A DNA stretch of 64,000 bases from assembly GCF_000154825.1 (NCBI RefSeq), contig NZ_DS560019.1, forward strand, positions 868,001-932,000, in the 5' to 3' direction. Positions within the stretch are counted from its first letter, which is position 1. Each line of letters begins with the position of its first letter. Under the pieces are notes generated by a model. It saw nothing but the letters and a program-made list of their open reading frames with translations, was not told the origin of the DNA and did no database searches. The stretch comes from Anaerofustis stercorihominis DSM 17244. Its GTDB lineage: Bacteria > Bacillota > Clostridia > Eubacteriales > Anaerofustaceae. Of the stretch, positions 44,052-57,117 are shown piece after piece. Both the position numbers and the translations under genes were made by a program.

Positions 44052-44744
44052 TTGAAAAAATATTTAGCAGAATTTATAGGAACATTTGTATTAGTATTCT
44101 TTGGATGCGGTAACGCTGTAGTCTTAGGCGGCTTCACAGGAGGAATGGGAAGCGGATTTTTGGGAGTTGTAGCTATTGCTTTGGCATTCGGGCTTGCAAT
44201 CGTTGCTGCCGCCTATGCAATAGGAGATATCTCCGGATGTCATGTCAATCCCGCAGTTTCTCTTTCTATGCTTATAACGGGAAGAATGAACTTAAATGAT
44301 TTTATAGGATATGTTATAGCACAAGTTTTGGGAGCATTGGCAGGAAGCGGAGTGCTTTACTTTATAACATCGGCAAGCCAGGGACTTAGAGGCTTTGGTG
44401 CGAATGGATACGGAGAGTTAAGCGGAGTAGGCTTAAATATGATTGGAGCATTGGCAGTAGAAGTAATTCTTACTTTTGTATTTATAATGACAATTTTAAG
44501 AGTAACCGATAATGAAAAAACAAGTCATATGGCGGGTCTTATAATCGGATTGACCCTTACTTTTGTACATATAATAGGTATTCCTTTGACTGGGACCTCC
44601 GTTAATCCTGCAAGGAGTTTAGCTCCTGCAATATTTACGGGAGGAGCTGCTTTATCACAAGTATGGTTGTTTATACTTGCTCCTTTGGTTGGAGGTGCAA
44701 TTGCAGCTTTTGTTCATAAATATTTATACAGTACCGAACAATAA
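44052..44744 (+). CDS. Aquaporin (MIP family)
   Basis: Six-span membrane channel of 230 residues, with both NPA half-helix motifs: HVNPAVSLSM near 64 and SVNPARSLAPA near 184. Start is TTG 44052, with GAGGAAA upstream. The spacing and short loops resemble AqpZ-type water channels rather than the longer GlpF glycerol type, although this does not settle what passes through. It is monocistronic with its own promoter and terminator. Confidence 0.9.
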   Translation: MKKYLAEFIGTFVLVFFGCGNAVVLGGFTGGMGSGFLGVVAIALAFGLAIVAAAYAIGDISGCHVNPAVSLSMLITGRMNLNDFIGYVIAQVLGALAGSGVLYFITSASQGLRGFGANGYGELSGVGLNMIGALAVEVILTFVFIMTILRVTDNEKTSHMAGLIIGLTLTFVHIIGIPLTGTSVNPARSLAPAIFTGGAALSQVWLFILAPLVGGAIAAFVHKYLYSTEQ

Positions 44745-44753
44745 TTAAAATGC

Positions 44754-44790
44754 AAAAGAGCATATGTTTTACATATGCTCTTTTTTTATT
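44754..44790 (+). terminator. Terminator of the aquaporin gene
   Basis: AAAAGAGCATATGT and ACATATGCTCTTTT pair around TTT, then TTTT. It isolates the aquaporin from the downstream redox cluster. Confidence 0.92.
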
Positions 44791-44810
44791 TAAAAAGTTT
44801 TAAAAAGTAC

Positions 44811-44841
44811 TTGACTTGGAGTCAACTCCAAGTGATAGGGT
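44811..44841 (+). promoter_or_regulatory. MerR-type operator-promoter of the redox cluster
   Basis: -35 TTGACT (44811-44816) and -10 TAGGGT (44836-44841) are separated by 19 bases, a spacing typical of MerR-activated promoters. The perfect dyad CTTGGAGT-CA-ACTCCAAG (44815-44832) fills the spacer. It is nearly identical to the element before the MerR gene at 50363-50393. The weak -10 fits a promoter that needs activation. Confidence 0.82.
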
Positions 44842-44890
44842 TTTATTGTGAAGAAATAATTATAAAAATATATTTCATGAAGGAGTTAAA

Positions 44891-45364
44891 ATGAAAAAGA
44901 AATTGATTGTATATTATTCATACACTGGTAATACAAAGATGATCGTGGATATTTTAAAAGATAACCTTGATGTTGATATCGTAAGGTTAGAAACAATAAA
45001 GCCATACAGCGGAAGTTATGATGATGTGGTCGAACAGGGGAAAAAAGAAACCGACAGTAGATACATGCCTGAGATAAAAGAGATAGGAATAGATTTAAAA
45101 GATTATGATGAAATTCTTTTGGGAAGTCCCGTTTGGTGGTACACATTTGCACCTGCCGTAAGGACTTTTTTATCTAAATATGATTTAAGCGGGAAAAAAA
45201 TTGTTCCTTTTATTACTAACGGAGGGTGGATAGGAAGTACTGTTGATGATATTAAAAGTTTAGCTAATAATTCACAAGTAAAAAATGCTATAAATATAAA
45301 GTTTAACGGTAGTGATATGGAAACTTCAATGAGTGAAATAAATGCTTGGATAGACAAATTATAA
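44891..45364 (+). CDS. Flavodoxin-family protein, first copy
   Basis: A 157-residue cytoplasmic flavodoxin-like protein. The FMN phosphate loop is YYSYTGNTK near 8 and a second flavin loop is LGSPVWWYTFAP near 78. ITNGGWIGS near 105 completes the site. It is more distant from the two other flavodoxins of the cluster (45395 and 48357) than they are from each other. AGGAG lies 7 bases before ATG. It is the first gene after the 19-bp-spacer promoter and probably carries electrons or reduces quinone-like substrates. Confidence 0.88.
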   Translation: MKKKLIVYYSYTGNTKMIVDILKDNLDVDIVRLETIKPYSGSYDDVVEQGKKETDSRYMPEIKEIGIDLKDYDEILLGSPVWWYTFAPAVRTFLSKYDLSGKKIVPFITNGGWIGSTVDDIKSLANNSQVKNAINIKFNGSDMETSMSEINAWIDKL

Positions 45365-45394
45365 AAAATATGAAAATCAATAAGGAGATAAGAA

Positions 45395-45871
45395 ATGAAC
45401 AGTAAAAAAACTTTAGTAGCTTATTTTTCACACAGCGGAAATACAAGAACCGCAGCAGAAAAAATAGCGGGTTTAACAAACAGTGATTTATTTGAAATAA
45501 AACCAATTAAAAGGTATCCGAAAAATTATAACGAGACGGTTGCAATTGCAAAAAAAGAAATAAATGGGAACGCAAGACCTAAGATTTCAGATAGTGTAAA
45601 AGATATGGACTCGTATGATGTGATTTATCTCGGTTATCCGAATTGGTGGAGTACCATGCCTATGGTTGTATTTACTTTTTTGGAAGGATATGATTTCATA
45701 GGCAAAAAAATATATCCGTTTTGTACACATGGTGGAAGCAGAATGGGAAGAAGCGAAAAGGATATTAAAGATTTATGTCCTAATGCAGTTATAGGTAAAG
45801 GACTTCCTATAAGCGGAAATAGTGTAAATAGCTGTGATGAAATGATAAAAAATTGGATAGAGGTAAAATAA
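45395..45871 (+). CDS. Flavodoxin-family protein, second copy
   Basis: A 158-residue cytoplasmic flavodoxin-like protein. FMN loops are YFSHSGNTRT near 10 and GYPNWWSTMP near 82, plus PFCTHGGSRMGRSE near 109. The central and C-terminal regions are very similar to the lipoprotein flavodoxin at 48357, so these two look like a duplication. AAGGAGA lies 6 bases before ATG. The stop is one base before the next gene. Confidence 0.88.
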   Translation: MNSKKTLVAYFSHSGNTRTAAEKIAGLTNSDLFEIKPIKRYPKNYNETVAIAKKEINGNARPKISDSVKDMDSYDVIYLGYPNWWSTMPMVVFTFLEGYDFIGKKIYPFCTHGGSRMGRSEKDIKDLCPNAVIGKGLPISGNSVNSCDEMIKNWIEVK

Positions 45872-45872
45872 T

Positions 45873-46631
45873 ATGTCAAATAGCAATAAAGTAAAAGAAT
45901 ATTATAAAAAAATGTCTTTATTATATGACTCTGATTTATTAAAAAATGATCCTGAGTTTATGGATATATTTAATAATTTTGCATTTGATGAAGTTTTAAG
46001 TCAAGATGATTTGGACGACAAGACGAGATTTATGGCTATATTATCTGCATTGATAGGTTGCCAGGGTATAGATGAATATAAAATAATGTTATCTGTTTCT
46101 CTTGAGTTAGGCGTCACTCCGACAGAAATCAAAGAGATAGTATACCAATCTACAGCTTATCTGGGTATTGGCAGAGTTCTGCCTTTTTTAAAAGCAACTA
46201 ATGAGGTTTTTGAAGAGGATGGGATAGAACTTCCTCTTCAAAGTCAGTCAACAACTACTAAAGAAAACAGAAGAGAAAAAGGCAGTCAAGTTCAAATGGA
46301 TATTTTCGGGGAACATATGAAAGATTTTTGGAAATCCGGGCCCGAAGAAAGTAAACATATAAATTATTGGTTGGCGACGAATTGTTTCGGAGATTATTAT
46401 ACTAGGACGGGGCTTGATAATAAACAAAGAGAAATGATCACATTTTGTTTTCTGTCAGCTCAGGGTGGCTGTGAGCCTCAGCTTATAAGTCATGCTGTCG
46501 CAAATATGAGAATAGGAAATGATAAAGAGTTTTTGATAAATATCATCTCTCAGTGTCTTCCTTATATAGGTTACCCCCGTTCTTTAAATGCGCTTAACTG
46601 TGTTAATGAGGCTTATAAAAATATTAAATAG
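45873..46631 (+). CDS. Doubled carboxymuconolactone-decarboxylase-fold protein
   Basis: The 252 residues contain two CMD-like helical units (about 35-110 and 160-245): LDDKTRFMAILSALIGCQG near 47 and GLDNKQREMITFCFLSAQGG near 180, each followed by a helix with LGV/HAVANMR. The CxxC peroxidase motif of AhpD is absent; single Cys residues occur at about 63 and 200. True decarboxylase activity is doubtful; such proteins are often oxidoreductase partners. It is encoded one base after the second flavodoxin. Confidence 0.78.
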   Translation: MSNSNKVKEYYKKMSLLYDSDLLKNDPEFMDIFNNFAFDEVLSQDDLDDKTRFMAILSALIGCQGIDEYKIMLSVSLELGVTPTEIKEIVYQSTAYLGIGRVLPFLKATNEVFEEDGIELPLQSQSTTTKENRREKGSQVQMDIFGEHMKDFWKSGPEESKHINYWLATNCFGDYYTRTGLDNKQREMITFCFLSAQGGCEPQLISHAVANMRIGNDKEFLINIISQCLPYIGYPRSLNALNCVNEAYKNIK

Positions 46632-46651
46632 AAAATATATAGGAAAGATTG

Positions 46652-47689
46652 ATGAAATACATTAAATTGGGCAATTCGGATTTGAATGTATCAAGAATAT
46701 GTATGGGGTGTATGGGCTTTGGCAATCCATTGAGCGGTCAGCATACATGGACTTTGGATGAAAATCATTCGGGAGAAATCATTAAAAAAGGACTTGACTT
46801 GGGTGTTAATTTCTTTGATACCGCCATTGCGTATCAAGGCGGAACGAGTGAAGAATATCTTGGAAGAGCAATCAAGGATTATACAAATAGAGAAAATATC
46901 GTAATTGCTACTAAATTTCTGCCAAGAAGCGATGATGAAATTAAAAATGGGATTAGCGGACAGATACATATAGAAAAAATGTTAAATCAAAGTCTTAAAA
47001 ATTTGGGGACGGATTATGTTGATTTATATATTTATCATATGTGGGATTATAATACTCCAATACACGATATTATGGAGGGTCTTAATAATGTTGTAAAAGA
47101 AGGTAAGGCTCGCTATATCGGGGTTTCCAATTGTTTTGCTTGGCAGCTCGCGAAGGCAAATTCTTTGGCTGAAAAAGAGAATTTTGAAAAGTTTATATCG
47201 GTTCAGGGACATTATAATTTGATTTTCAGAGAAGAAGAAAGGGAAATGATCCCTTATTGCAAAGAAGAAAACATAGCACTTACACCGTATAGCTCTCTTG
47301 CCGGGGGCAGGCTTTCGAGAAATCTTAACGAAAGGACAAAAAGACAGCGAGAAGACAGTTATGCTGAATTAAAATATGGCGCTACTAAAATGCAGGATAA
47401 CGTCATAATCGAAAGGGTAGCTGAGATAGCTAAAGAAAGAGAAATATCAATGACGGAAGTATCTTTGGCATGGTTACTTACAAAAGTTGCTTCTCCCGTT
47501 GTAGGTGCTACAAAGTTGAAACATATCGAAGACGCTGCAAGTGCTGTCGATGTCGTTTTAACAACAGAAGAAATAGACTATTTGGAAGAAAAATATTCTT
47601 CACATGATTTGGTCGGCGTTATGGCTCAAAATCGTCCGGAACTTTCGAATTCCAAACATGTATGGTCTGTCGGTAAACAGGAAATATGA
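46652..47689 (+). CDS. Aldo/keto reductase
   Basis: A 345-residue NAD(P)H-dependent reductase. The catalytic tetrad is visible: Asp and Tyr in FFDTAIAYQGG near 52-57, Lys in ATKF near 86 and His in LYIYHMW near 126. The nucleotide part includes SPVVGATKLKHIEDA near 285. Aldehydes or ketones are the usual substrates. ATG 46652 is preceded by AGGAAAG; TTG 46649 directly before it is a less likely start. It is 20 bases from the previous gene and has no terminator after it. Confidence 0.9.
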   Translation: MKYIKLGNSDLNVSRICMGCMGFGNPLSGQHTWTLDENHSGEIIKKGLDLGVNFFDTAIAYQGGTSEEYLGRAIKDYTNRENIVIATKFLPRSDDEIKNGISGQIHIEKMLNQSLKNLGTDYVDLYIYHMWDYNTPIHDIMEGLNNVVKEGKARYIGVSNCFAWQLAKANSLAEKENFEKFISVQGHYNLIFREEEREMIPYCKEENIALTPYSSLAGGRLSRNLNERTKRQREDSYAELKYGATKMQDNVIIERVAEIAKEREISMTEVSLAWLLTKVASPVVGATKLKHIEDAASAVDVVLTTEEIDYLEEKYSSHDLVGVMAQNRPELSNSKHVWSVGKQEI

Positions 47690-47905
47690 TTAAAATCATT
47701 TAAAAGCAAAAGGTAAATAAATCATTCGTGTTTGGTTGATTGTCAGTATAATGAGTGGTTTTAGATATAAAATATTCAAATAAATTCAATGTGTTTATGT
47801 TAATACTGGCAGATAGCAATGATATTTTTATGTTTAAGATAAAAGATATTTTACTTAATAAAGTAATAAAACATAATTAAAAACTAAAATAAAGAGGTAT
47901 TTTAA

Positions 47906-48319
47906 ATGAGTAATAAAAATGAAATAGTAAAAGAAATGATTTTTCCTATAGGAGACAAAAATAATGCTTTTAAGGATTATTTTGTAGGACAGAGTTATTT
48001 AAACATGCTTACAACCGAGAGAGTAGGAATAGGTAATGTAACTTTTGAACCAAAATGCAGAAATAACTGGCATATACATCATAAAGGTGGGCAAATCCTT
48101 TTGGTAACCGGAGGAAGAGGCTATTATCAGGAATGGGGTAAGGAAGCAAGAGAACTTTTTCCCGGAGATGTAGTAAACATCCCGCCTGAAGTCAAACACT
48201 GGCATGGTGCATCTAAAGACAGTTGGTTTTCACATCTGGCTGTTGAAGTTCCGGCTGATGGCGCTTCCAATGAATGGCTGGAAGCTGTTTCGGATGATGA
48301 TTATAACAAGTTAAAATAA
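47906..48319 (+). CDS. Cupin-domain protein
   Basis: A 137-residue single cupin. Metal-ligand motifs are WHIHHKGGQILLV near 51 and KHWHGASKDSWFSHLAV near 96, with FPGDVVNIPP between. Small cupins of this type are often encoded next to CMD-fold and aldo/keto reductase genes. AGAGGT lies 8 bases before ATG. The 216 bases upstream contain no gene or terminator that I can support, and no clear operator, so it probably shares the cluster transcript. Confidence 0.85.
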   Translation: MSNKNEIVKEMIFPIGDKNNAFKDYFVGQSYLNMLTTERVGIGNVTFEPKCRNNWHIHHKGGQILLVTGGRGYYQEWGKEARELFPGDVVNIPPEVKHWHGASKDSWFSHLAVEVPADGASNEWLEAVSDDDYNKLK

Positions 48320-48356
48320 TGTTATAACTTTATTTAATATAAAAGAGGAGACTATA

Positions 48357-48971
48357 ATGAAAAAAATATTTGTATTATTTCTTACTTTAATAATGTTAGC
48401 AGGAATAAGCTCATGCGGCAGCAATGGGACCTCCAATACTGATAATCAAAGCTCAAAGAGCGGTACTGCGACTCAAAACAGCGGAAATACAAACAAAATA
48501 TTAGTTGCATATTTCTCTTATTCGGGAAATACAAAAACCGTTGCCGAGAAAATTCAAAAGAATACTAATGCTGAAATTTTTAGAATAGAAACAAAAGAGG
48601 ATTATCCCAGCGACTATGATGCTGTAGTAGATAAAGCACAGCAAGAACAGGATGAGAATGCAAGACCGGAACTTAAAAGCAAAATAGAAAATTTAGATGA
48701 TTATGATGTTATATTTTTAGGTTATCCGAATTGGTGGGGTACAATGCCAATGGCTTTATTTACTTTTTTGGAAGAAAATAACTTAGATGGCAAGACCATA
48801 GTTCCTTTTTGTACTCATGAAGGAAGTGCTCTCGGAAGAAGTGAAGATGATATAAAGAGTTTATGTTCAAAATCAACGATCAAAGAGGGGCTTGCCATAA
48901 GAGGAAGTGATGTAAATGCAGATGATACGGATAGTGAAATAAATAAGTGGATAGAAAATTTAAATTTATAA
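48357..48971 (+). CDS. Exported flavodoxin lipoprotein
   Basis: A 204-residue flavodoxin with a lipoprotein signal: MKKIFVLFL, hydrophobic core, LAGISSC with Cys at 21. A Ser/Thr/Asn linker (about 22-44) tethers the flavodoxin (about 45-204): AYFSYSGNTKT near 51, GYPNWWGTMP near 123, PFCTHEGSALGRSE near 150. It closely resembles the cytoplasmic copy at 45395. FMN must therefore be available outside, or bound before export; no apbE-like FMN transferase is in the window. AGGAG lies 8 bases before ATG. It is adjacent to a predicted membrane cytochrome. Confidence 0.85.
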   Translation: MKKIFVLFLTLIMLAGISSCGSNGTSNTDNQSSKSGTATQNSGNTNKILVAYFSYSGNTKTVAEKIQKNTNAEIFRIETKEDYPSDYDAVVDKAQQEQDENARPELKSKIENLDDYDVIFLGYPNWWGTMPMALFTFLEENNLDGKTIVPFCTHEGSALGRSEDDIKSLCSKSTIKEGLAIRGSDVNADDTDSEINKWIENLNL

Positions 48972-48990
48972 TAAATGTCGGGAGAGTTGA

Positions 48991-49650
48991 TTGAAAAATA
49001 AAAAAGGATTTAATGTTGTATTGGATATTTCAATGCTTATTCTCATGCTTATCGAGATATCGGGAAGACTTGTAAGTTCGTTTTATCATGAACTTTTGGG
49101 TATAGGGCTTATAATGTTATTCATTTTACATAATATAAAAAATAGAAATTGGTATAAATCTATTTTTAAAGGGAGATATAACCTATACCGTACTTTGATT
49201 TTTATTATCAATGCAGGTCTTTTAATATCTTTTAGTGTGCTTATGATAAGTGCTGTCCCCATATCGAGGAGTATATTTAAATTCCTCGATATAGAAGGCG
49301 GATTAAATATTAGAAAGCTTCATACTGCATCTTCATATATAGGATTGATTTTTATATCTCTCCATCTGGGTTTTCATATGGAAATGATAATAAATAAAGT
49401 CAAAAATAAAATAAATATCCGTGGATTGACAAAAATCGTTTTCTGCATTATTTTTGCTTTAACTTTTATATGGGGTATAAGGTCATTTATTTATAGGAAT
49501 ATACTTTCTAAAGTAATTGCATATTATTCCTTTGATATCGCTTCTTCAAATGATAGTTTACTAGTCGCTTTTGGGGATTATTTCTGTATAGTATTTTTCA
49601 TTTCTTTCCTATGTTATTTTATTATGAAATTTATAAAGAAACATATTTAA
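48991..49650 (+). CDS. DUF4405-like membrane protein, probable diheme cytochrome b
   Basis: The 219 residues form about five membrane helices. His33 and His47 lie in helix 2, His111 and His125 in another helix; each pair is 14 residues apart, the pattern of transmembrane heme-b ligation. His129 is a further candidate. The layout fits DUF4405 (related to membrane cytochrome b units). Start is TTG 48991 with GGAGAG 4 bases upstream. It lies 19 bases after the flavodoxin lipoprotein and 27 before an iron-sulfur flavoprotein, which suggests transmembrane electron transfer. Heme binding is inferred. Confidence 0.72.
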   Translation: MKNKKGFNVVLDISMLILMLIEISGRLVSSFYHELLGIGLIMLFILHNIKNRNWYKSIFKGRYNLYRTLIFIINAGLLISFSVLMISAVPISRSIFKFLDIEGGLNIRKLHTASSYIGLIFISLHLGFHMEMIINKVKNKINIRGLTKIVFCIIFALTFIWGIRSFIYRNILSKVIAYYSFDIASSNDSLLVAFGDYFCIVFFISFLCYFIMKFIKKHI

Positions 49651-49677
49651 ACAAAAAAATTATTTACTGGAGGTAAT

Positions 49678-50214
49678 ATGAGTAAAAAAGTATTGATTAT
49701 ATCAAGCAGCCCGCGTAAAGGGGGTAATTCCGATACACTTTGTGATGAATTCAAACGAGGAGCCGAAGAGGCTGGTAATAAAGTTAAAAAATTATTTTTG
49801 AAAGATAAAAACATAAATTATTGTGTGGGGTGCGGAGTTTGTAATCAAACGGGAAATTGTACCCAGAAAGATGATGCTGATGAAATCGTGAATAATATGA
49901 TAAATGCGGACGTAATCGTAATGGCAAGTCCCGTATATTTTTATACTATATCCGCACAAATGAAAACACTGATTGACAGGACTTGTGCCAAACATAGACA
50001 AATAAAAAATAAAGAATTTTATTTCATTTTAACTGCCGCAGACAGCAGGCCGGAGTCTTTGATAAGAAGTATAGAATGTTTCAGAGGTTTTACTTCATGC
50101 CTTATAAATCCTGTGGAAAAAGGTATAATTTATGCAAACAGTGCTTGGAACATGGGAGACATAAATGAAAATCAGACTATTGAAGAAGCTTATCGAATGG
50201 GATTTAATATTTAA
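49678..50214 (+). CDS. Iron-sulfur flavoprotein (NADPH-dependent FMN reductase fold)
   Basis: The 178 residues have a flavodoxin-like fold with FMN loop SSSPRKGGNSDT near 10 and the compact motif C49-x2-C52-x2-C55-x5-C61 (YCVGCGVC...C), the 4Fe-4S pattern of iron-sulfur flavoproteins. ASPVYFYTISAQMK near 88 forms the second flavin loop. In anaerobes this family transfers electrons from ferredoxin or NAD(P)H to quinones, oxygen or peroxide. TGGAGGT lies 6 bases before ATG. It is the last gene of the block. Confidence 0.88.
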   Translation: MSKKVLIISSSPRKGGNSDTLCDEFKRGAEEAGNKVKKLFLKDKNINYCVGCGVCNQTGNCTQKDDADEIVNNMINADVIVMASPVYFYTISAQMKTLIDRTCAKHRQIKNKEFYFILTAADSRPESLIRSIECFRGFTSCLINPVEKGIIYANSAWNMGDINENQTIEEAYRMGFNI

Positions 50215-50280
50215 AGAAGTAAAATTCATATTTTATTAATTTTTATATAAATCGTTTAATAGTGAGTGAGGTATAAAGTA

Positions 50281-50358
50281 ATGTTTAATATAATAAATCA
50301 AGTGTGTATTTTCATGATATCTTGGGTACATAAGTTATTATTATTTTTATTTTCTTAA
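50281..50358 (+). CDS. Possible 25-residue hydrophobic peptide
   Basis: ATG 50281 with GTGAGGT 8 bases upstream opens a frame of 25 residues ending in a very hydrophobic stretch (HKLLLFLFS). It ends 5 bases before the MerR promoter. Too short and isolated to judge; it may be a chance frame. Confidence 0.25.
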   Translation: MFNIINQVCIFMISWVHKLLLFLFS

Positions 50359-50362
50359 ATAC

Positions 50363-50393
50363 TTGACTTGGAGTTCACTCCAAGTTATATAAT
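50363..50393 (+). promoter_or_regulatory. MerR-type operator-promoter of the merR gene
   Basis: TTGACT (50363-50368) and TATAAT (50388-50393) are separated by 19 bases. The dyad CTTGGAGT-TC-ACTCCAAG (50367-50384) fills the spacer and matches the element at 44815-44832 in all 16 arm bases. This implies autoregulation. Confidence 0.87.
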
Positions 50394-50460
50394 ATATATA
50401 AAGATATAAAAGCATTTTATTAATGAAGTATAATTATACGATTAACGGAGGGATTTGATC

Positions 50461-50844
50461 ATGAAAATAGCTGAAGTAAGTAAAAAATTAAATGTGTCCC
50501 AGGATACTATACGTTATTATGAGCGAATAGGTTTAATTCCTCATGTTCCGAGAAATAGCGGAGGAATAAGAGAATTCAGAGATGAAGATTTAAACTGGAT
50601 CGAATTTATAAGGTGTATGAGAGGTTCCGGACTGTCTATCGAATCCTTGGTTGAATATGTAAGTTTATTTCAGCAAGGTGATGAGACTATTGAAGGAAGA
50701 AAAGAAATTTTGCTTGAAGAACGAGAAAAGCTTAGTAAAAAGATTTCCGAAATGCAAAGCACATTGGAACGTTTGGATTATAAAATTAAAAGATACAGCG
50801 ATGGTCTTATGAAAAAATGCGAAGATAATTTAATAAAAAAATAA
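50461..50844 (+). CDS. MerR-family regulator (AdhR/NmlR-like, Cys52)
   Basis: A 127-residue MerR protein. The winged HTH starts MKIAEVSKKLNVSQDTIRYYERIGLIP and includes GIREF; a coiled coil follows (about 75-115). Cys52 in FIRCMRGSG matches the position of the redox/electrophile-sensing Cys in AdhR and NmlR relatives (Cys52/54); a second Cys is near the C-terminus (KKCEDN), and there is no metal-binding loop. ATG 50461 is preceded by GGAGGG 8 bases upstream. The operator pair at 44815 and 50367 is the likely target. Confidence 0.9.
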   Translation: MKIAEVSKKLNVSQDTIRYYERIGLIPHVPRNSGGIREFRDEDLNWIEFIRCMRGSGLSIESLVEYVSLFQQGDETIEGRKEILLEEREKLSKKISEMQSTLERLDYKIKRYSDGLMKKCEDNLIKK

Positions 50845-50923
50845 ATTGATTTTACTTTTAAAAATATAAATTTATTTAGGTAAAAATAATTATAACAATT
50901 TAAAATTCAATATTTGTAAGAAA

Positions 50924-50965
50924 AATAAACATGGATTAAGTAAATTTCTTCATGTTTATTTTTTT
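50924..50965 (+). terminator. Terminator after the MerR gene
   Basis: AAATAAACATG and CATGTTTATTT pair across an 18-base loop, followed by TTTTT. The long loop makes it weaker than others here. Confidence 0.6.
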
Positions 50966-51008
50966 ACCACTTTACGTTTTTTTTACTTTATATTTACCAA
51001 AGTATGAT
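50963..51008 (+). promoter_or_regulatory. Putative PhoP boxes and promoter of pstS
   Basis: TTTAC repeats begin at 50971, 50982 and 50993, exactly 11 bases apart, with another at 50963. Tandem TTWACA-like boxes with an 11-base period are the known PhoP binding pattern in Firmicutes. A -10 TATGAT (51003-51008) lies directly downstream, so the repeats cover the -35 region, as in PhoP-activated promoters. PhoP is encoded downstream at 55185. Confidence 0.7.
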
Positions 51009-51078
51009 TTCTGAAAAAATGATATTGATATATTATTACCACATAATAAATATCATTTCAAAGAGAGGAAAAGAAAAA

Positions 51079-51876
51079 ATGAAAAAGAAATTATTAGCTG
51101 TATGTTTAGCAGCATTATGCCTAATCGGATTTGCCGGCTGCGGAGCTTCAGGTTCCGGAACAATAACAATGGCAGGTTCAACTTCTATGGAAAGCGTTGC
51201 AAAAGCTTGGGGTGAAGCTTATCAATTAAATAATGATGTGACTATCGATGTTCAGGGCGGAGGTTCATCAGCGGGTGTTACAAGCGTAAAAGACGAAAGT
51301 GCTCAAGTTGGTATGTTAAGCAGAGAACTTAAAGATGAAGAAAAACAAGAAGGCTTAACAGAATATCAAGTAGCTATTGACGGTATAGCAATAGTAGTAA
51401 ATAAAGACAACAAAGTTGAAGAGTTGACAAGCAAACAAATTGCTGACATCTACACAGGTAAAATCACAAACTGGAAAGATGTAGGCGGAGCTGACGAAGA
51501 AATCGTGGTTGTAGGCAGAGAAGCAGGCAGCGGTACAAGAGACGGTTTTGAAAGTATCCTTGATGTTGAAGAAAAATGCAAATATAAAGCAGAACTTAAT
51601 GAAACAGGTCAAGTAAAATCAACAGTAGCTTCAACAAAAGGCGCTATAGGTTATATGTCACTTGGTTATGTAGATGATGAATTAAAGGCTGTAAAAGTTG
51701 ATGGAGTAGCACCAAGTGAAAGTACGGTTTCAGACGGCAGCTATAAAGTACAAAGACCATTTATCGTTGTAACAAGCGGGGATGCTTCAAGTGAAGTAAA
51801 AGCTTTTGTTGAATATATGTTAAGTGCTGACGGACAAGGTATCGTTGAAAGCAGTCACTTTGTAAAAGTAAAATAA
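51079..51876 (+). CDS. pstS: Phosphate-binding lipoprotein PstS
   Basis: Extracellular phosphate receptor for the Pst ABC transporter. The 265 residues begin with a lipoprotein signal (LIGFAGC, Cys at 22), then ITMAGSTSME near 28, GGGSSAG near 58, and GREAGSGTRDGFE near 153, all phosphate-binding loops. ATG 51079 is chosen as the signal peptide begins there with AGAGGAAA upstream; the frame extends back to 51004 but lacks a good site. It heads the operon with a separating hairpin before pstC. Confidence 0.96.
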   Translation: MKKKLLAVCLAALCLIGFAGCGASGSGTITMAGSTSMESVAKAWGEAYQLNNDVTIDVQGGGSSAGVTSVKDESAQVGMLSRELKDEEKQEGLTEYQVAIDGIAIVVNKDNKVEELTSKQIADIYTGKITNWKDVGGADEEIVVVGREAGSGTRDGFESILDVEEKCKYKAELNETGQVKSTVASTKGAIGYMSLGYVDDELKAVKVDGVAPSESTVSDGSYKVQRPFIVVTSGDASSEVKAFVEYMLSADGQGIVESSHFVKVK

Positions 51877-51902
51877 GATTTAATAATAAATAAATTTACA
51901 TA

Positions 51903-51930
51903 CATTAATGCACCTTATGGTGCATTAATG
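51903..51930 (+). promoter_or_regulatory. Strong hairpin between pstS and pstC
   Basis: CATTAATGCACC and GGTGCATTAATG are perfect 12-base arms around TTAT. The following TTACATTTTA is not a good T-run, so it is more likely a stabiliser or partial terminator that raises pstS over pstCAB. Confidence 0.85.
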
Positions 51931-51952
51931 TTACATTTTAAGAGGTAAGCGG

Positions 51953-52840
51953 ATGAAATTAAAAAATAAAACTAAGCAGGATAGAGTATCCGGAATATTT
52001 GAAAAGATTTTTTTATTTTGCGCTGTTATTTCTATTATAAGTGTTGTTGTTATAAGCTTATATATGATTATATCAGGATTTCCTGCTGTTAAAGAGATAG
52101 GTCTTTTTAACTTTTTGTTCGGTACTGTTTGGAATCCGACAGGGGCAAATCCCAGCTACGGAATTCTTCCTATGATACTTTCAAGTATCTGTGCTACATT
52201 CGGTGCTATTATTATAGGAGTTCCTATCGGAGTATTGACTGCAGTATTTTTGAGTGAAATAGCAAATAAAAAAGTTGCTAATTTTATTAGACCCTTTATA
52301 GAAATACTATCCGGAATTCCTTCTGTTATATATGGATTTGTAGGTCTGATATTATTGGTTCCGTTTATTGCCAAAGTATTTGATCTATCTTACGGAGCAA
52401 ACCTTTTTACAGGTATGCTCGTATTATCGATAATGATACTTCCTACAATAGTAACTATAAGCGAAAACAGTATAAGATCTCTTCCAAGCGAATATAAAGA
52501 AGCTTCGTTGGGACTAGGGGCTACAAAAATGCAGACTATATTTAAAATATTGATCCCTGCTGCAAGAAGCGGTATAACAACGAGTATAGTACTTGGTATA
52601 GGCAGAGCCATAGGGGAGACTATGGCAGTTATTATGGTTACCGGTAACAGTGTTAATATGCCGGACATTTTCCAGTCTGTAAGACTTATGACAAGCGGGA
52701 TAGTATCGGAAATGTCATATGCAGTCGGATTACATAAAGACGCATTATTTGCAATAGGACTGGTATTATTTATCTTTATTATGATAATAAACTTAATATT
52801 AAATGTCTTCTTAGCCAAAGCAGACCAGAAATATGATTAA
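51953..52840 (+). CDS. pstC: Phosphate ABC transporter permease PstC
   Basis: The 295 residues form about six membrane helices. The EAA cytoplasmic loop contains YKEASLGLGATKMQT near 182, and GRAIGETMAV near 218 is typical of phosphate permeases. A start-proximal AAGAGGT precedes ATG 51953. It overlaps the frame that begins pstA and couples to it. Confidence 0.95.
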   Translation: MKLKNKTKQDRVSGIFEKIFLFCAVISIISVVVISLYMIISGFPAVKEIGLFNFLFGTVWNPTGANPSYGILPMILSSICATFGAIIIGVPIGVLTAVFLSEIANKKVANFIRPFIEILSGIPSVIYGFVGLILLVPFIAKVFDLSYGANLFTGMLVLSIMILPTIVTISENSIRSLPSEYKEASLGLGATKMQTIFKILIPAARSGITTSIVLGIGRAIGETMAVIMVTGNSVNMPDIFQSVRLMTSGIVSEMSYAVGLHKDALFAIGLVLFIFIMIINLILNVFLAKADQKYD

Positions 52841-52853
52841 GCAGGAGGAAATG

Positions 52854-53702
52854 ATGAAAAAGAAAAAATTTAGATTGGCAGATAATATACTAAAGTTTCT
52901 TGTTATTATCAGTGCGGGATTTACGGCACTTCTTGCTTTATCACTTGTTCTATATGTAATGGTTAAAGGGGTTGGGAGTATTGATTTAAAAATGTTAACA
53001 ACTTCGCCTAGTGAACTTACGGGTTCCGTCGGAGTATTCCCAATGATAATCAATACTTTATATATGATAGTTTTGACTCTTGTTATTGCAGTCCCAATAG
53101 GTATAGGAAGTGCAATATATCTTAATGAATATGCTAGGAAAGAAAGCAAATTAGTTAAGGCAGTGGAATTCACAACTCAAACTTTGGCGGGTATTCCTTC
53201 AATAATATATGGTTTATTCGGATATATGTTCTTTAGTATATTCCTAGGTCTTAGAGTGTCGATCATATCAGGTACACTTACTCTTTCTATTATGGTATTA
53301 CCGACATTAATCAGGACTACGCAGGAAGCTTTAAGCAGTGTTCCGAACATGTACAGAGAAGGTGCTCTCGGAATGGGGGCGAAAAAAATATATTTGATAA
53401 GAACGATTTTACTTCCTTGTTCAATGCCCGGTATCGTAACCGCAGTGATATTGAGTGTAGGTAAAGTAGTCGGCGAAAGTGCGGCTTTGATATTTACCGC
53501 AGGAATGGGGTATATGCTGACCGGAGGATTAATAAATCATATGTTTAAAAGCGGTGCTACCCTTACGGTTCAGCTATACTTATATGCTTCAAGGGGTGAA
53601 AACCTTTCGGTTTGTTTTGCACTTGCAAGTATATTGATCGTGATAGTACTTATTATAAATTTATCGGCAAGGCTTCTATCTAAGAAGTTAGAGGCTAAGT
53701 AG
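52854..53702 (+). CDS. pstA: Phosphate ABC transporter permease PstA
   Basis: The 282 residues form about six membrane helices. [19 protein letters not shown] near 164 is the EAA loop and [15 protein letters not shown] near 204 matches the family. ATG 52854 (or 52851) is favoured by AGGAGG at 52843-52848; an in-frame ATG at 52833 lies in front of that site. It is 8 bases from pstB. Confidence 0.95.
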
Positions 53703-53710
53703 GAGGAAAG

Positions 53711-54472
53711 ATGGAAAAAAGAAAAAAGATTATAACCAAAAATATGGACCTTTATTATTCCAAAAACCATGCTTTAAAAAATATAAATATGGATATTTTA
53801 GAAAATGAAGTGGTTTCATTGATAGGTCCGAGCGGATGCGGAAAATCCACATATTTAAAGAGCATAAACAGAATGAATGATCTCGTTGAAGGTGTTAAAA
53901 TCACAGGAGAGATTTTAATAGATAATGAAAATATTTATGATGAAGATATAGATGTAACACTTCTTAGAAAAAAAGTAGGAATGGTATTCCAAAAACCCAA
54001 TCCGTTTCCAATGAGTATTTATGATAATATTGCTTACGGTCCAAGGGTTCATGGAATAAAAAATAAGAGTGAACTCGATGAAATCGTAGAGAGAAGTCTG
54101 AAGGGAGCCGCTTTATTTGAGGAAGTAAAAGACAGACTTAAAAAGTCGGCTTTTGGATTATCCGGAGGACAACAACAGAGGCTTTGTATAGCAAGAGCAT
54201 TAGCGGTCGAACCTGAAATCCTTTTAATGGATGAACCTACAAGTGCGCTTGATCCTATTTCTACCATGAAGATAGAAGAATTGGTGTTTGATTTAAAGAA
54301 AAAGTACACCGTTGTTATTGTTACTCACAATATGCAGCAAGCGGCAAGGATTTCCGATAAGACTGCATTTTTCCTTCTCGGAGAGCTTATCGAATTCAAT
54401 AAAACATCGGCGCTGTTTGCAAATCCAGAGCATCCTAAAACTGAAGAATATATAACCGGAAGATTTGGTTGA
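53711..54472 (+). CDS. pstB: Phosphate ABC transporter ATP-binding protein PstB
   Basis: The 253 residues show Walker [10 protein letters not shown] near 38, Q-loop [11 protein letters not shown] near 93, signature LSGGQQQRL near 150 and Walker [13 protein letters not shown] near 171, with the His switch in [10 protein letters not shown]. The [10 protein letters not shown] stretch is specific for PstB. AGGAGG lies 4 bases before ATG. It energises PstC/PstA. Confidence 0.97.
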
Positions 54473-54494
54473 TACTATGAAAAGGAGAATATAA

Positions 54495-55169
54495 ATGAGT
54501 GCAAGAAGAAGATTTGATGAAGAATTGGGTTTATTACATCATGAACTTGTAGAAATGGGTTCAATGATCGAAAAAGCAATAAAGACTTCATTTAAGGCAA
54601 TAGAAAGCGATGATGAGGAAGCCGCTAAAGATATAATAGAATCGGATAAAGCCATAAATGAAATGGAAAGAAAGATTGAAGCAAGATGTTTAAAACTTAT
54701 TTTAAGACAGCAGCCTGTAGCTACCGATTTAAGACTTATATCTACGGCAATGAAGATGATTACCGATATGGAGCGTATCGGAGACCATGCCGCAGACATT
54801 GCTTCTATATGTTTGGATGATGAAAAAGAAAAAAATCCGGAACCGTTCAGAATAGTAGACGATAAAATACTGAAAATGGCGGATATAGATTTGGAAATGG
54901 TTGCATCCAGTATTTCTGCTTTTATAAATGATAATTTAGAACTTGCAAAGACGACCATAAAGACTGATAGTGAGGTTGATGAGTTGTTTTATGAAGTTAG
55001 AGATGATATAATAAAAGGACTTAAATCGGATAAAATTTCTCCGAGTCTTGCGATGGATACGCTTATGCTTATTAAGTATTTGGAACGTATCGGAGACCAT
55101 GCAACAAATATATGTGAATGGGTTATATTCTATTTGACCGGAGAACATAAGAATAAGAAATTATTATAA
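54495..55169 (+). CDS. phoU: PhoU, negative regulator of phosphate signalling
   Basis: The 224 residues are two repeated three-helix PhoU units, each with the metal/contact motif: DMERIGDHAADIA near 94 and YLERIGDHATNI near 197. In characterised systems PhoU joins the transporter to the PhoR kinase and dampens the response when phosphate is plentiful. AAAGGAG lies upstream. It is followed directly by phoP. Confidence 0.96.
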   Translation: MSARRRFDEELGLLHHELVEMGSMIEKAIKTSFKAIESDDEEAAKDIIESDKAINEMERKIEARCLKLILRQQPVATDLRLISTAMKMITDMERIGDHAADIASICLDDEKEKNPEPFRIVDDKILKMADIDLEMVASSISAFINDNLELAKTTIKTDSEVDELFYEVRDDIIKGLKSDKISPSLAMDTLMLIKYLERIGDHATNICEWVIFYLTGEHKNKKLL

Positions 55170-55184
55170 AGAAAAGGAAAAATT

Positions 55185-55865
55185 ATGGGTAATTATATTT
55201 ATGTAGTTGAAGATGACAATAATATAAGTGAACTGTTAAAATGTTCACTGGAAGCATTTAATTATTACGTCAAAGTATTCGAAAACTGTGAAGATATGAT
55301 GATTGCATTAAAAGAAGAAAAGCCTAAACTGATGTTACTTGATATAATGCTTCCGGGAATGAGCGGTATCGATGCTCTTAAGCTACTAAAAAACAGTAAT
55401 AAATATAAAAGTATTCCTATAATTATTTTAAGTGCTAAAAGCAGTGAGATAGATAAAGTAAATGCTCTTGAACTCGGAGCAGATGATTATGTTACAAAGC
55501 CGTTTTCGGTCCTTGAACTTTCTTCGAGAATAAAGAGTGTTCTTAGGAGAAGTTATAAGGTAGAGGATAATATCTTAAATTATAAAGATATTACCATAGA
55601 TAAGGAAAATTATCTTGTTTCACATGACGGTGAAGAAGTTATCCTTACGAAGAAAGAATATAAAATTCTGTTATATATGCTTGAAAATAAAGGAAGAGTC
55701 GTAACCAGAGAAGAACTTTTAAACGAAGTTTGGGGTTATGATTTTGAAGGAGAAAGCAGAACTCTTGATATGCATATGAAGACACTTAGAAATAAAATAG
55801 GAAGTGAAGACGATAAATATAAGTATATAAAGACTATCAGAGGAATAGGATACAAATTAGGTTAA
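55185..55865 (+). CDS. phoP: PhoP/PhoB-type response regulator
   Basis: OmpR-family regulator of 226 residues. Receiver: EDD near 9, phospho-acceptor in LLDIMLPGMSG near 53, KPF near 105. Winged helix: LTKKEYKILLYML near 150 and GYKLG at the end. Its position next to pst and phoU identifies the phosphate system. AAAGGA lies 8 bases before ATG. The probable target is the 11-base repeats upstream of pstS, which would make the operon self-regulating. Confidence 0.93.
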   Translation: MGNYIYVVEDDNNISELLKCSLEAFNYYVKVFENCEDMMIALKEEKPKLMLLDIMLPGMSGIDALKLLKNSNKYKSIPIIILSAKSSEIDKVNALELGADDYVTKPFSVLELSSRIKSVLRRSYKVEDNILNYKDITIDKENYLVSHDGEEVILTKKEYKILLYMLENKGRVVTREELLNEVWGYDFEGESRTLDMHMKTLRNKIGSEDDKYKYIKTIRGIGYKLG

Positions 55866-55869
55866 TAAA

Positions 55870-57117
55870 ATGAGAAGATTTGTCTTTATTCGTAGTTTTA
55901 TTGTAGGACTTGTATGTACTTTAATATTAAGCTTTTCCTTTTTTATAGTTTTATCGAAAACTCAGGATAATGGTTATCATACTACTATTGAAGGATTCCT
56001 TCATACCGTAAACGAAACATATGCGTTTAGTGATAATTATCAAAAGGATGTAGACTATCTTCAGGACATTTCTACCGACAAATACAGAGTGACATTGATT
56101 TCTCCGAAGGGTGTGGTTTTAGCGGATTCCGCTCACGAAGGGATAACCGAAAATCATTCCGACAGAGAAGAAATAAAAGATGCCAAGAAAAAAGGCGAAG
56201 GATATATAATAAGGAATTCTTCCACTTTAAAAGAAAAAGTAATGTATGGTGCTATGGTTCTTAAAAATAAAAATATTTTAAGGGTAATGGTACCTATGGG
56301 AACTATATATGAAAATCTGCTTACAAAGATAAGTATATTCCTGCTTGCCATAGTAATTTCATTTTTGATATCATGGCTATTTGCAAGAAAGTTTGCAAAA
56401 GATTCTGTCATACCTTTCGGCAGTGCCGTTGATGTATACAAAAGAGAATTTTTTGCCAATGCTTCTCATGAATTAAAAACACCTATTACGTCCATAAGAG
56501 GTTTTGCGGAACTTATTTCTTCGGGACTTATAGATGATAAAGATAAAATAATAGAGTATAGTACCACTATTAAAAGGGAAGCAATCAGGATGGATACTTT
56601 GGTTGAAGGTATACTTAAATTATCAAGTTTGGAAGATGTGGATGAAGAAGATATGCCATTGGAAGAAGTTAATGTAAGTGACGTTGTAAAAGAGGCAGTA
56701 GAAGTACTTGACTATAAGATATATGAACGAAACATAACCGTAGATTTAGATTTAAAAGACGGATATATAATGGCGAGGCATGAAGATATTTTAAGGGTAT
56801 TTATAAATCTGATAGAAAATGGAATAAAATATAATAAAGATAACGGTAAGATTTATATCGATATAAAACAAATAAAAAGAAAAGTCCATATAACGATAAA
56901 AGATACCGGTATAGGTATAAAGGAAGAAAATCTTCCACATATCTTTGAAAGATTTTATAGAGTTGATAAGAGCAGGAACAGAAAAGTAGAGGGTTCCGGA
57001 CTTGGACTTTCGATAGTTAAAAGAATAATATACAAGTATAAAGGAACCATAGACGTCAAATCGGTTTATAATGCCGGAACGACTTTTATGATAACTTTCG
57101 ATGTTATACAAAAATAA
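55870..57117 (+). CDS. phoR: PhoR-type sensor histidine kinase
   Basis: The 415 residues have membrane helices at about 7-30 and 158-175 that enclose an extracellular domain (about 35-155). HisKA starts at about 190 with FFANASHELKTPITSIRGF, and the ATPase domain has NLIENGIKY near 312, DTGIGI near 343 and GSGLGLSIVKRI near 378. I see no separate cytoplasmic PAS/HAMP block, so it is shorter than Bacillus PhoR. It starts 4 bases after phoP. PhoU may act on it. Confidence 0.92.
   Translation: MRRFVFIRSFIVGLVCTLILSFSFFIVLSKTQDNGYHTTIEGFLHTVNETYAFSDNYQKDVDYLQDISTDKYRVTLISPKGVVLADSAHEGITENHSDREEIKDAKKKGEGYIIRNSSTLKEKVMYGAMVLKNKNILRVMVPMGTIYENLLTKISIFLLAIVISFLISWLFARKFAKDSVIPFGSAVDVYKREFFANASHELKTPITSIRGFAELISSGLIDDKDKIIEYSTTIKREAIRMDTLVEGILKLSSLEDVDEEDMPLEEVNVSDVVKEAVEVLDYKIYERNITVDLDLKDGYIMARHEDILRVFINLIENGIKYNKDNGKIYIDIKQIKRKVHITIKDTGIGIKEENLPHIFERFYRVDKSRNRKVEGSGLGLSIVKRIIYKYKGTIDVKSVYNAGTTFMITFDVIQK

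Follow-up and report, generated by a model that had tools for sequence, protein, structure and literature searches.

The window, the whole stretch of 64,000 nucleotides of Anaerofustis stercorihominis DSM 17244 DNA analysed here, contains a gene encoding a DUF4405 protein, which probably moves electrons from one side of the membrane to the other with heme taken from elsewhere. The explanation that we favour, with somewhat more confidence than doubt, is that this protein is a diheme wire that reduces a lipoprotein flavodoxin holding non-covalent FMN, with scavenged heme and no self-made quinone. This explanation is based on the sequence, its conservation, the predicted helices, the gene order, gene fusions in relatives and missing pathway genes, and from these we infer the direction of electron flow, the donor, the acceptor or partner, the substrate and the side of each heme. 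The DUF4405 gene lies in the following cluster:

44891..45364, + strand: Flavodoxin_4 protein, no signal seen, presumed cytosolic (Pfam, genome search)
45395..45871, + strand: Flavodoxin_4 protein, no signal seen, presumed cytosolic (Pfam, genome search)
45873..46631, + strand: carboxymuconolactone decarboxylase (CMD) family protein, two domains (Pfam, NCBIfam)
46649..47689, + strand: aldo/keto reductase (AKR) (domain searches)
47906..48319, + strand: cupin, mandelonitrile-lyase-like, under the NCBIfam cut-off (domain searches)
48357..48971, + strand: Flavodoxin_4 protein with a lipoprotein-type signal (Cys20 in ISSC) and a short SYSGNT loop (Pfam, lipobox rule, loop alignment)
48980..48986, + strand: purine-rich GGGAGAG, ribosome-binding-like, upstream of the DUF4405 TTG start (read from the sequence)
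48991..49650, + strand: DUF4405 open reading frame, 219 residues, TTG start, predicted diheme cytochrome (Pfam, AlphaFold2 model, conservation)
49678..50214, + strand: FMN_red, NADPH-dependent FMN reductase family (Pfam)
50455..50844, + strand: MerR-family regulator, NmlR-like, 159 bits against an NCBIfam cut-off of 175 (NCBIfam)

All genes of this cluster (44891-50844) are on the + strand, and successive gaps of 37, 19 and 27 bases lie between the genes for the cupin, the lipoprotein flavodoxin, the DUF4405 protein and FMN_red. The whole genome contains three Flavodoxin_4 matches, all inside this 6-kb cluster, together with its one DUF4405 gene. Promoter-like sites in 44700-51010 are at chance level (33 found, 34.2 expected), and a scan of the nine cluster proteins recognised none that belongs to a ferrosome or an iron transporter. 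No paper on the combination of CMD, flavodoxin, aldo and cupin was found in the openly accessible literature. Directly downstream (51004-57117), the translations read as an apparent phosphate-binding lipoprotein, two permeases, an ATPase, a PhoU-like protein and a two-component system.

The open reading frame at 48991-49650 is genuine. Residues 72-129 of its product match PF14358 with 34.7 bits, above the curated Pfam gathering cut-off of 26.7, and PF14358 is matched by 54 of 54 aligned family members; no match to the protein was found in NCBIfam or by sequence search of the PDB. Both the TTG-started gene of 219 residues and the DUF4405 assignment proposed in the initial annotation are thus borne out, while its suggestion of a "minimal" cytochrome was rejected, as relatives usually have about 220-240 residues and the size of the window protein is ordinary among them. 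Relatives that align over the full length are only 24-34% identical to it, and the window member therefore appears isolated in sequence. When the window protein was the sole query, a contig profile search gave no relative; a five-row alignment of close relatives did recover them. DUF4405 carriers make up 9/67 genomes of the order and 27/391 genomes drawn from the class (own genome in both), and none was found in the other 12 genomes of the family. Culturable carriers include Merdimonas faecis and Blautia schinkii.

The window protein has histidines at positions 33, 47, 111, 125, 129 and 218, of which five are considered here:

49087..49089, + strand: codon of His33, which together with His111 is predicted to bind the outer heme, on the extracytosolic side (model, conservation; pairing tentative)
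49129..49131, + strand: codon of His47, which together with His125 is predicted to bind the inner heme, on the cytosolic side (model, conservation; pairing tentative)
49321..49323, + strand: His111 codon, predicted outer heme ligand (model, conservation)
49363..49365, + strand: His125 codon, predicted inner heme ligand (model, conservation)
49375..49377, + strand: His129 codon, invariant fifth histidine (kept in 114/114 sequences)

Conservation was assessed with the window protein plus 116 relatives that had been selected for their similarity (37 stretches and the best 80 of 306 matches in a second genome set, in which L108 gave no DUF4405 open reading frame and was dropped, leaving 79 loci), which gave 114 distinct sequences. 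His47, His111, His125 and His129 are each kept in 114/114 of these, window protein included, and His33 in 113/114; the lone miss is L054, an open reading frame in which stop codons intervene shortly before the region expected to hold this residue. The five near-invariant histidines imply, at the level of sequence, that a cofactor is bound. At least two His pairs at a spacing of 14 occurred in 0.54% of 200,000 shuffles of the window protein's own residues, which by itself is modest evidence given that the whole window had been read, and conservation appears to be the stronger evidence for the pairs. His129 may be an alternative inner ligand, a propionate contact or an electron entry site.

The AlphaFold2 model of the window protein (54-row alignment; mean pLDDT 87.3, pTM 0.84) contains six long helices, at residues 2-23, 30-50, 65-91, 105-140, 146-168 and 190-218. 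His33 and His47 are placed in the second helix, and His111, His125 and His129 in the fourth. When drawn on an ideal helical wheel, the two histidines of a pair are separated by 40 degrees in both cases and so share a face. Loops 48-66 and 130-148 as well as both ends of the protein are rich in Lys and Arg, and because of this charge distribution both termini and these two loops are predicted to be inside. Helices 2 and 4 would consequently run from out to in, placing His33 and His111 near the outer face and His47 and His125 nearer the inner face, with His33/His111 as the probable ligands of an outer heme and His47/His125 of an inner heme. Foldseek found no match in the PDB at E <= 0.001. The top rows of the VIA-align search against the PDB are mostly TRP/polycystin channels and other helical bundles; b6f, bc1, heme A synthase, STEAP1 and bacterial NADPH oxidase scored Z 6.8-7.8, which is the tool's own noise range, and the fold matches listed include neither a PepSY nor an MsrQ chain.

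In cytochrome b of the bc1 and b6f complexes, two His pairs about 14 residues apart on two helices hold two stacked hemes. The initial annotation had noticed the pairs His33/His47 and His111/His125, and they are indeed exactly 14 apart in two predicted membrane helices, do not lie on opposite faces of an ideal helix, and consist of four conserved residues; it had overlooked the fifth invariant histidine, His129, four residues past His125. Its comparison with bc-type cytochromes holds for the two pairs of about 14 spacing on two helices, but the resemblance is limited to this ligand spacing, and a reading as a relative of bc complexes was set aside, as neither the sequence nor the fold matches obtained supported it. 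Its central idea of a diheme cytochrome gains support from the literature, since the four histidines and six helices match a family of which one member binds heme b according to the accessible part of PMC11334425 (mSystems 2024), to which all our citations of this paper refer.

In that study, a purified DUF4405 protein from Oscillospiraceae (MBD5117352.1) had the spectra of heme b, the homologue having bound heme b on expression in E. coli, and AlphaFold models of DUF4405 proteins had six transmembrane helices and four central histidines (PMC11334425). In the window protein the six transmembrane helices are likewise predicted, and the four central histidines are kept in 113-114 of the 114 sequences. 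It is very likely that the window protein binds heme, and the heme-cytochrome interpretation is essentially already in print for the DUF4405 family (PMC11334425). The accessible part of PMC8238504 makes no mention of DUF4405.

The genome itself has no match to ferrochelatase (control matched in 8/14), ALAD (HemB; control matched in 11/14) or cytochrome bd (control matched in 10/14), and no UbiA homologue (control matched in 14/14). Because neither HemB nor ferrochelatase was found, heme, if present in the window protein, would be scavenged from outside, and because no UbiA homologue was found, a self-made quinone is unlikely as the electron source. Among 21 genomes, ferrochelatase was found in 0/21, ALAD in 6/21 and UbiA in 2/21 (one of the two under its cut-off). 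A DUF4405 relative is carried by 19 of these 21 genomes (19 of the 33 carriers), and 13 of the 19 are without ALAD.

The pairing of DUF4405 with a lipoprotein flavodoxin is repeated in related gut Clostridia. In the 79-locus set, a Flavodoxin_4 match occurs within five genes of DUF4405 in 69/79 loci and a lipobox-bearing one in 57/79; Flavodoxin_4 is immediately adjacent in 38/79, and none is found within five genes in 10/79. By position, Flavodoxin_4 is found in 33/77 loci at -1, just upstream, declining to 5/59 at +5. The 37-locus set, which takes in more distant DUF4405 types and shares some contigs with the 79-locus set, has Flavodoxin_4 within five genes in 20 loci, lipobox-bearing in 18 and adjacent in 15. 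The other neighbours within five genes in the 79-locus set are AKR (42), FMN_red (27), cupin (25), CMD (21) and MerR (11). All these neighbour counts are approximate, being obtained from simple open reading frame calls and a home-made lipobox rule.

In a few relatives DUF4405 is fused to Flavodoxin_4 or to another domain. In L050 (4501-6666, - strand), a single gene encodes DUF4405, a seventh transmembrane helix, an FGE-sulfatase domain and Flavodoxin_4, and it reads as a natural cytochrome-flavodoxin fusion. The L136 gene (6001-7755, + strand) joins DUF4405 to a seventh transmembrane helix with a lipobox-like sequence and a DUF362 domain. L063 (5394-7034, - strand) combines VanZ, a DUF4405-like part and Flavodoxin_4, with a loop that carries a flavinylation-like DAVSGAS motif; its DUF4405-like part was found by phmmer and is under the reach of Pfam for DUF4405. 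The seventh helix in the fusions would place the added domain outside. A DUF4405 subtype in L057, L058, L061, L066, L069, L071, L072 and L073 has at its end a tail rich in cysteines, similar to CTGCxxHCPLxxPxC, which is possibly a metal or cluster site.

According to PMC11334425, DUF4405 genes often occur with apbE and a flavinylated Flavodoxin_4, apbE co-localisation involves only a minority of DUF4405 proteins, and the discussion there describes flavinylation signs in extracytosolic flavodoxins, unlike cytosolic ones. The lipoprotein flavodoxin of the window has a SYSGNT loop with no flavinylation insertion, and no ApbE match was found in the genome (99.2% complete; control matched in 7/14). 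The window locus thus falls outside the flavinylation-associated subset of DUF4405 loci, which is defined by a nearby apbE and a flavinylated partner. This ApbE-free state is not general among DUF4405 carriers, because 23/32 DUF4405-carrying genomes (32 of the 33 carriers examined) have ApbE somewhere.

The 170 distinct flavodoxins near DUF4405 comprise 76 of the window type, with a lipobox and a short loop without insertion, 68 with a short loop and no recognised lipobox, 19 with a DxDA..SPS insertion and 7 with other long loops; L063 was classed as "short", as its alignment starts past the insertion. A strict flavinylation motif, D..[ST]GA[ST], was discarded as too narrow, being present in 1/179 flavodoxin entries (L063), and the DxDA..SPS type was then recognised in 19/170. 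The loop SWADNAVLxDDVDAVxSPSV..PGNV of this latter type occurs in lipoprotein flavodoxins of L042 (third gene upstream of DUF4405), L102, L109, L130 and others, and is a possible divergent flavinylation site; G076 (L042) has such an insertion-type flavodoxin, yet no ApbE match. Taken from their loops, these sequences suggest that many extracytosolic flavodoxins near DUF4405 are without flavinylation, unlike the published contrast. A search of the openly accessible literature for flavodoxin, lipoprotein and extracytosolic found no paper.

In the diheme wire that we propose, two b hemes would be stacked across the six-helix protein, the outer one held by His33/His111 and the inner one by His47/His125. 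The electron donor would be on the cytosolic side, probably a flavodoxin or the FMN_red-type flavoprotein of the same cluster, and would reduce the inner heme; electrons would then pass to the outer heme and on to the flavodoxin encoded next to it, anchored as a lipoprotein at the outer face. This flavodoxin would hold FMN non-covalently and hand electrons to extracytosolic substrates. As to purpose, respiration-like electron disposal or stress repair may apply. Against the wire, the missing heme pathway could also mean an unloaded protein, the flavodoxin is next door in only 38/79 loci, and the lipobox calls are home-made.

The other explanations differ in the purpose of the electrons or in the role of the heme. 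A redox module for stress repair would deliver electrons to oxidised or electrophile-damaged extracytosolic molecules by an MsrQ-like logic under NmlR-like MerR control, with the AKR, cupin and CMD proteins acting as cytosolic detoxifiers. The content of the cluster and the recurrence of these neighbours near DUF4405 (AKR in 42/79, FMN_red 27, cupin 25, CMD 21, MerR 11) speak for it, and it is compatible with the diheme wire, from which it differs in purpose; but no methionine sulfoxide reductase or thiol partner is among the nine cluster proteins scanned and the MerR protein scores under the NmlR cut-off (159 vs 175 bits), and we regard stress repair as unlikely. Relays of flavin and heme are able to reduce ferric iron. 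The window protein could be a cytochrome that handles iron in the manner of FezC, a ferrosome heme protein resembling DUF4405 (PMC11334425), moving electrons to or from iron at the membrane, with the flavodoxin incidental or aiding ferric reduction. The neighbours and fusions point to flavodoxin instead, no ferrosome or iron transporter gene is among the nine cluster proteins scanned, and the window protein has its four central histidines in one chain, whereas FezC could use homodimerisation (PMC11334425); this function seems distinctly unlikely.

A heme binder that is no electron wire, such as a sensor, store or importer in a heme-scavenging bacterium, would suit a genome without ALAD and ferrochelatase matches, in which any heme is foreign. 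Electron transfer across membranes usually relies on two stacked bis-His sites, the conserved partner is itself a redox protein, and in two relatives the protein is fused to flavodoxin, all of which makes such a role highly improbable. That no heme is bound in vivo, the histidines binding another metal or the protein being mostly apo in a heme-less lineage, we consider scarcely credible: the gene counts (ferrochelatase 0/21, ALAD 6/21, and 13/19 DUF4405 carriers without ALAD) favour this idea, but five histidines are kept in 113-114/114 sequences and the E. coli-expressed homologue bound heme b (PMC11334425).

We further raise, tentatively and with more doubt than confidence, that the diheme wire of the window represents a large class, so far undescribed, of modules for extracytosolic electron transfer in gut Clostridia that work without ApbE or self-made quinone, in which scavenged heme in DUF4405 would link a cytosolic flavodoxin or NAD(P)H-flavoprotein to lipoprotein flavodoxins with non-covalent FMN. 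If true, a function would be assigned to many DUF4405 genes that lack apbE nearby, which are the majority according to PMC11334425. The class would run against the published picture of extracytosolic flavodoxins as the flavinylated ones, and covalent flavinylation would not be required for them. Anaerobes without heme or quinone synthesis genes would still run a transmembrane heme wire, and therefore heme from the host or from neighbours would control their extracytosolic redox chemistry.

Among known systems, cytochrome b of bc1 and b6f shares with the window protein a pair of helices that each carry two His at a spacing of about 14, but there is no PDB sequence match, the Z of about 7 is helical-bundle noise, and the nine cluster proteins scanned include no Rieske or cytochrome c1/f partner. 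PepSY-like and MsrQ-like cytochromes resemble the proposed wire in having bis-His hemes in a membrane helix bundle and in transferring electrons across the membrane (PMC11334425), while they differ in that no sequence match was found and the window cluster has no PepSY domain or Msr partner. FezC binds heme and is DUF4405-like, and the window protein, a DUF4405 member, very likely binds heme as well; the heme sites of FezC are modelled by homodimerisation and its gene is found in ferrosome clusters (PMC11334425), in contrast to the four central histidines in one chain and the nine scanned cluster proteins without a ferrosome gene in the window. The MBD5117352.1 cytochrome differs in its setting, which is one of apbE and a flavinylated Flavodoxin_4 (PMC11334425), whereas the window genome has no ApbE match and its flavodoxin no flavinylation loop. 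In likeness, PF14358, six transmembrane helices and four central histidines are common to this cytochrome and the window protein, and the published DUF4405/apbE clusters often encode Flavodoxin_4 (PMC11334425), as does the window cluster.
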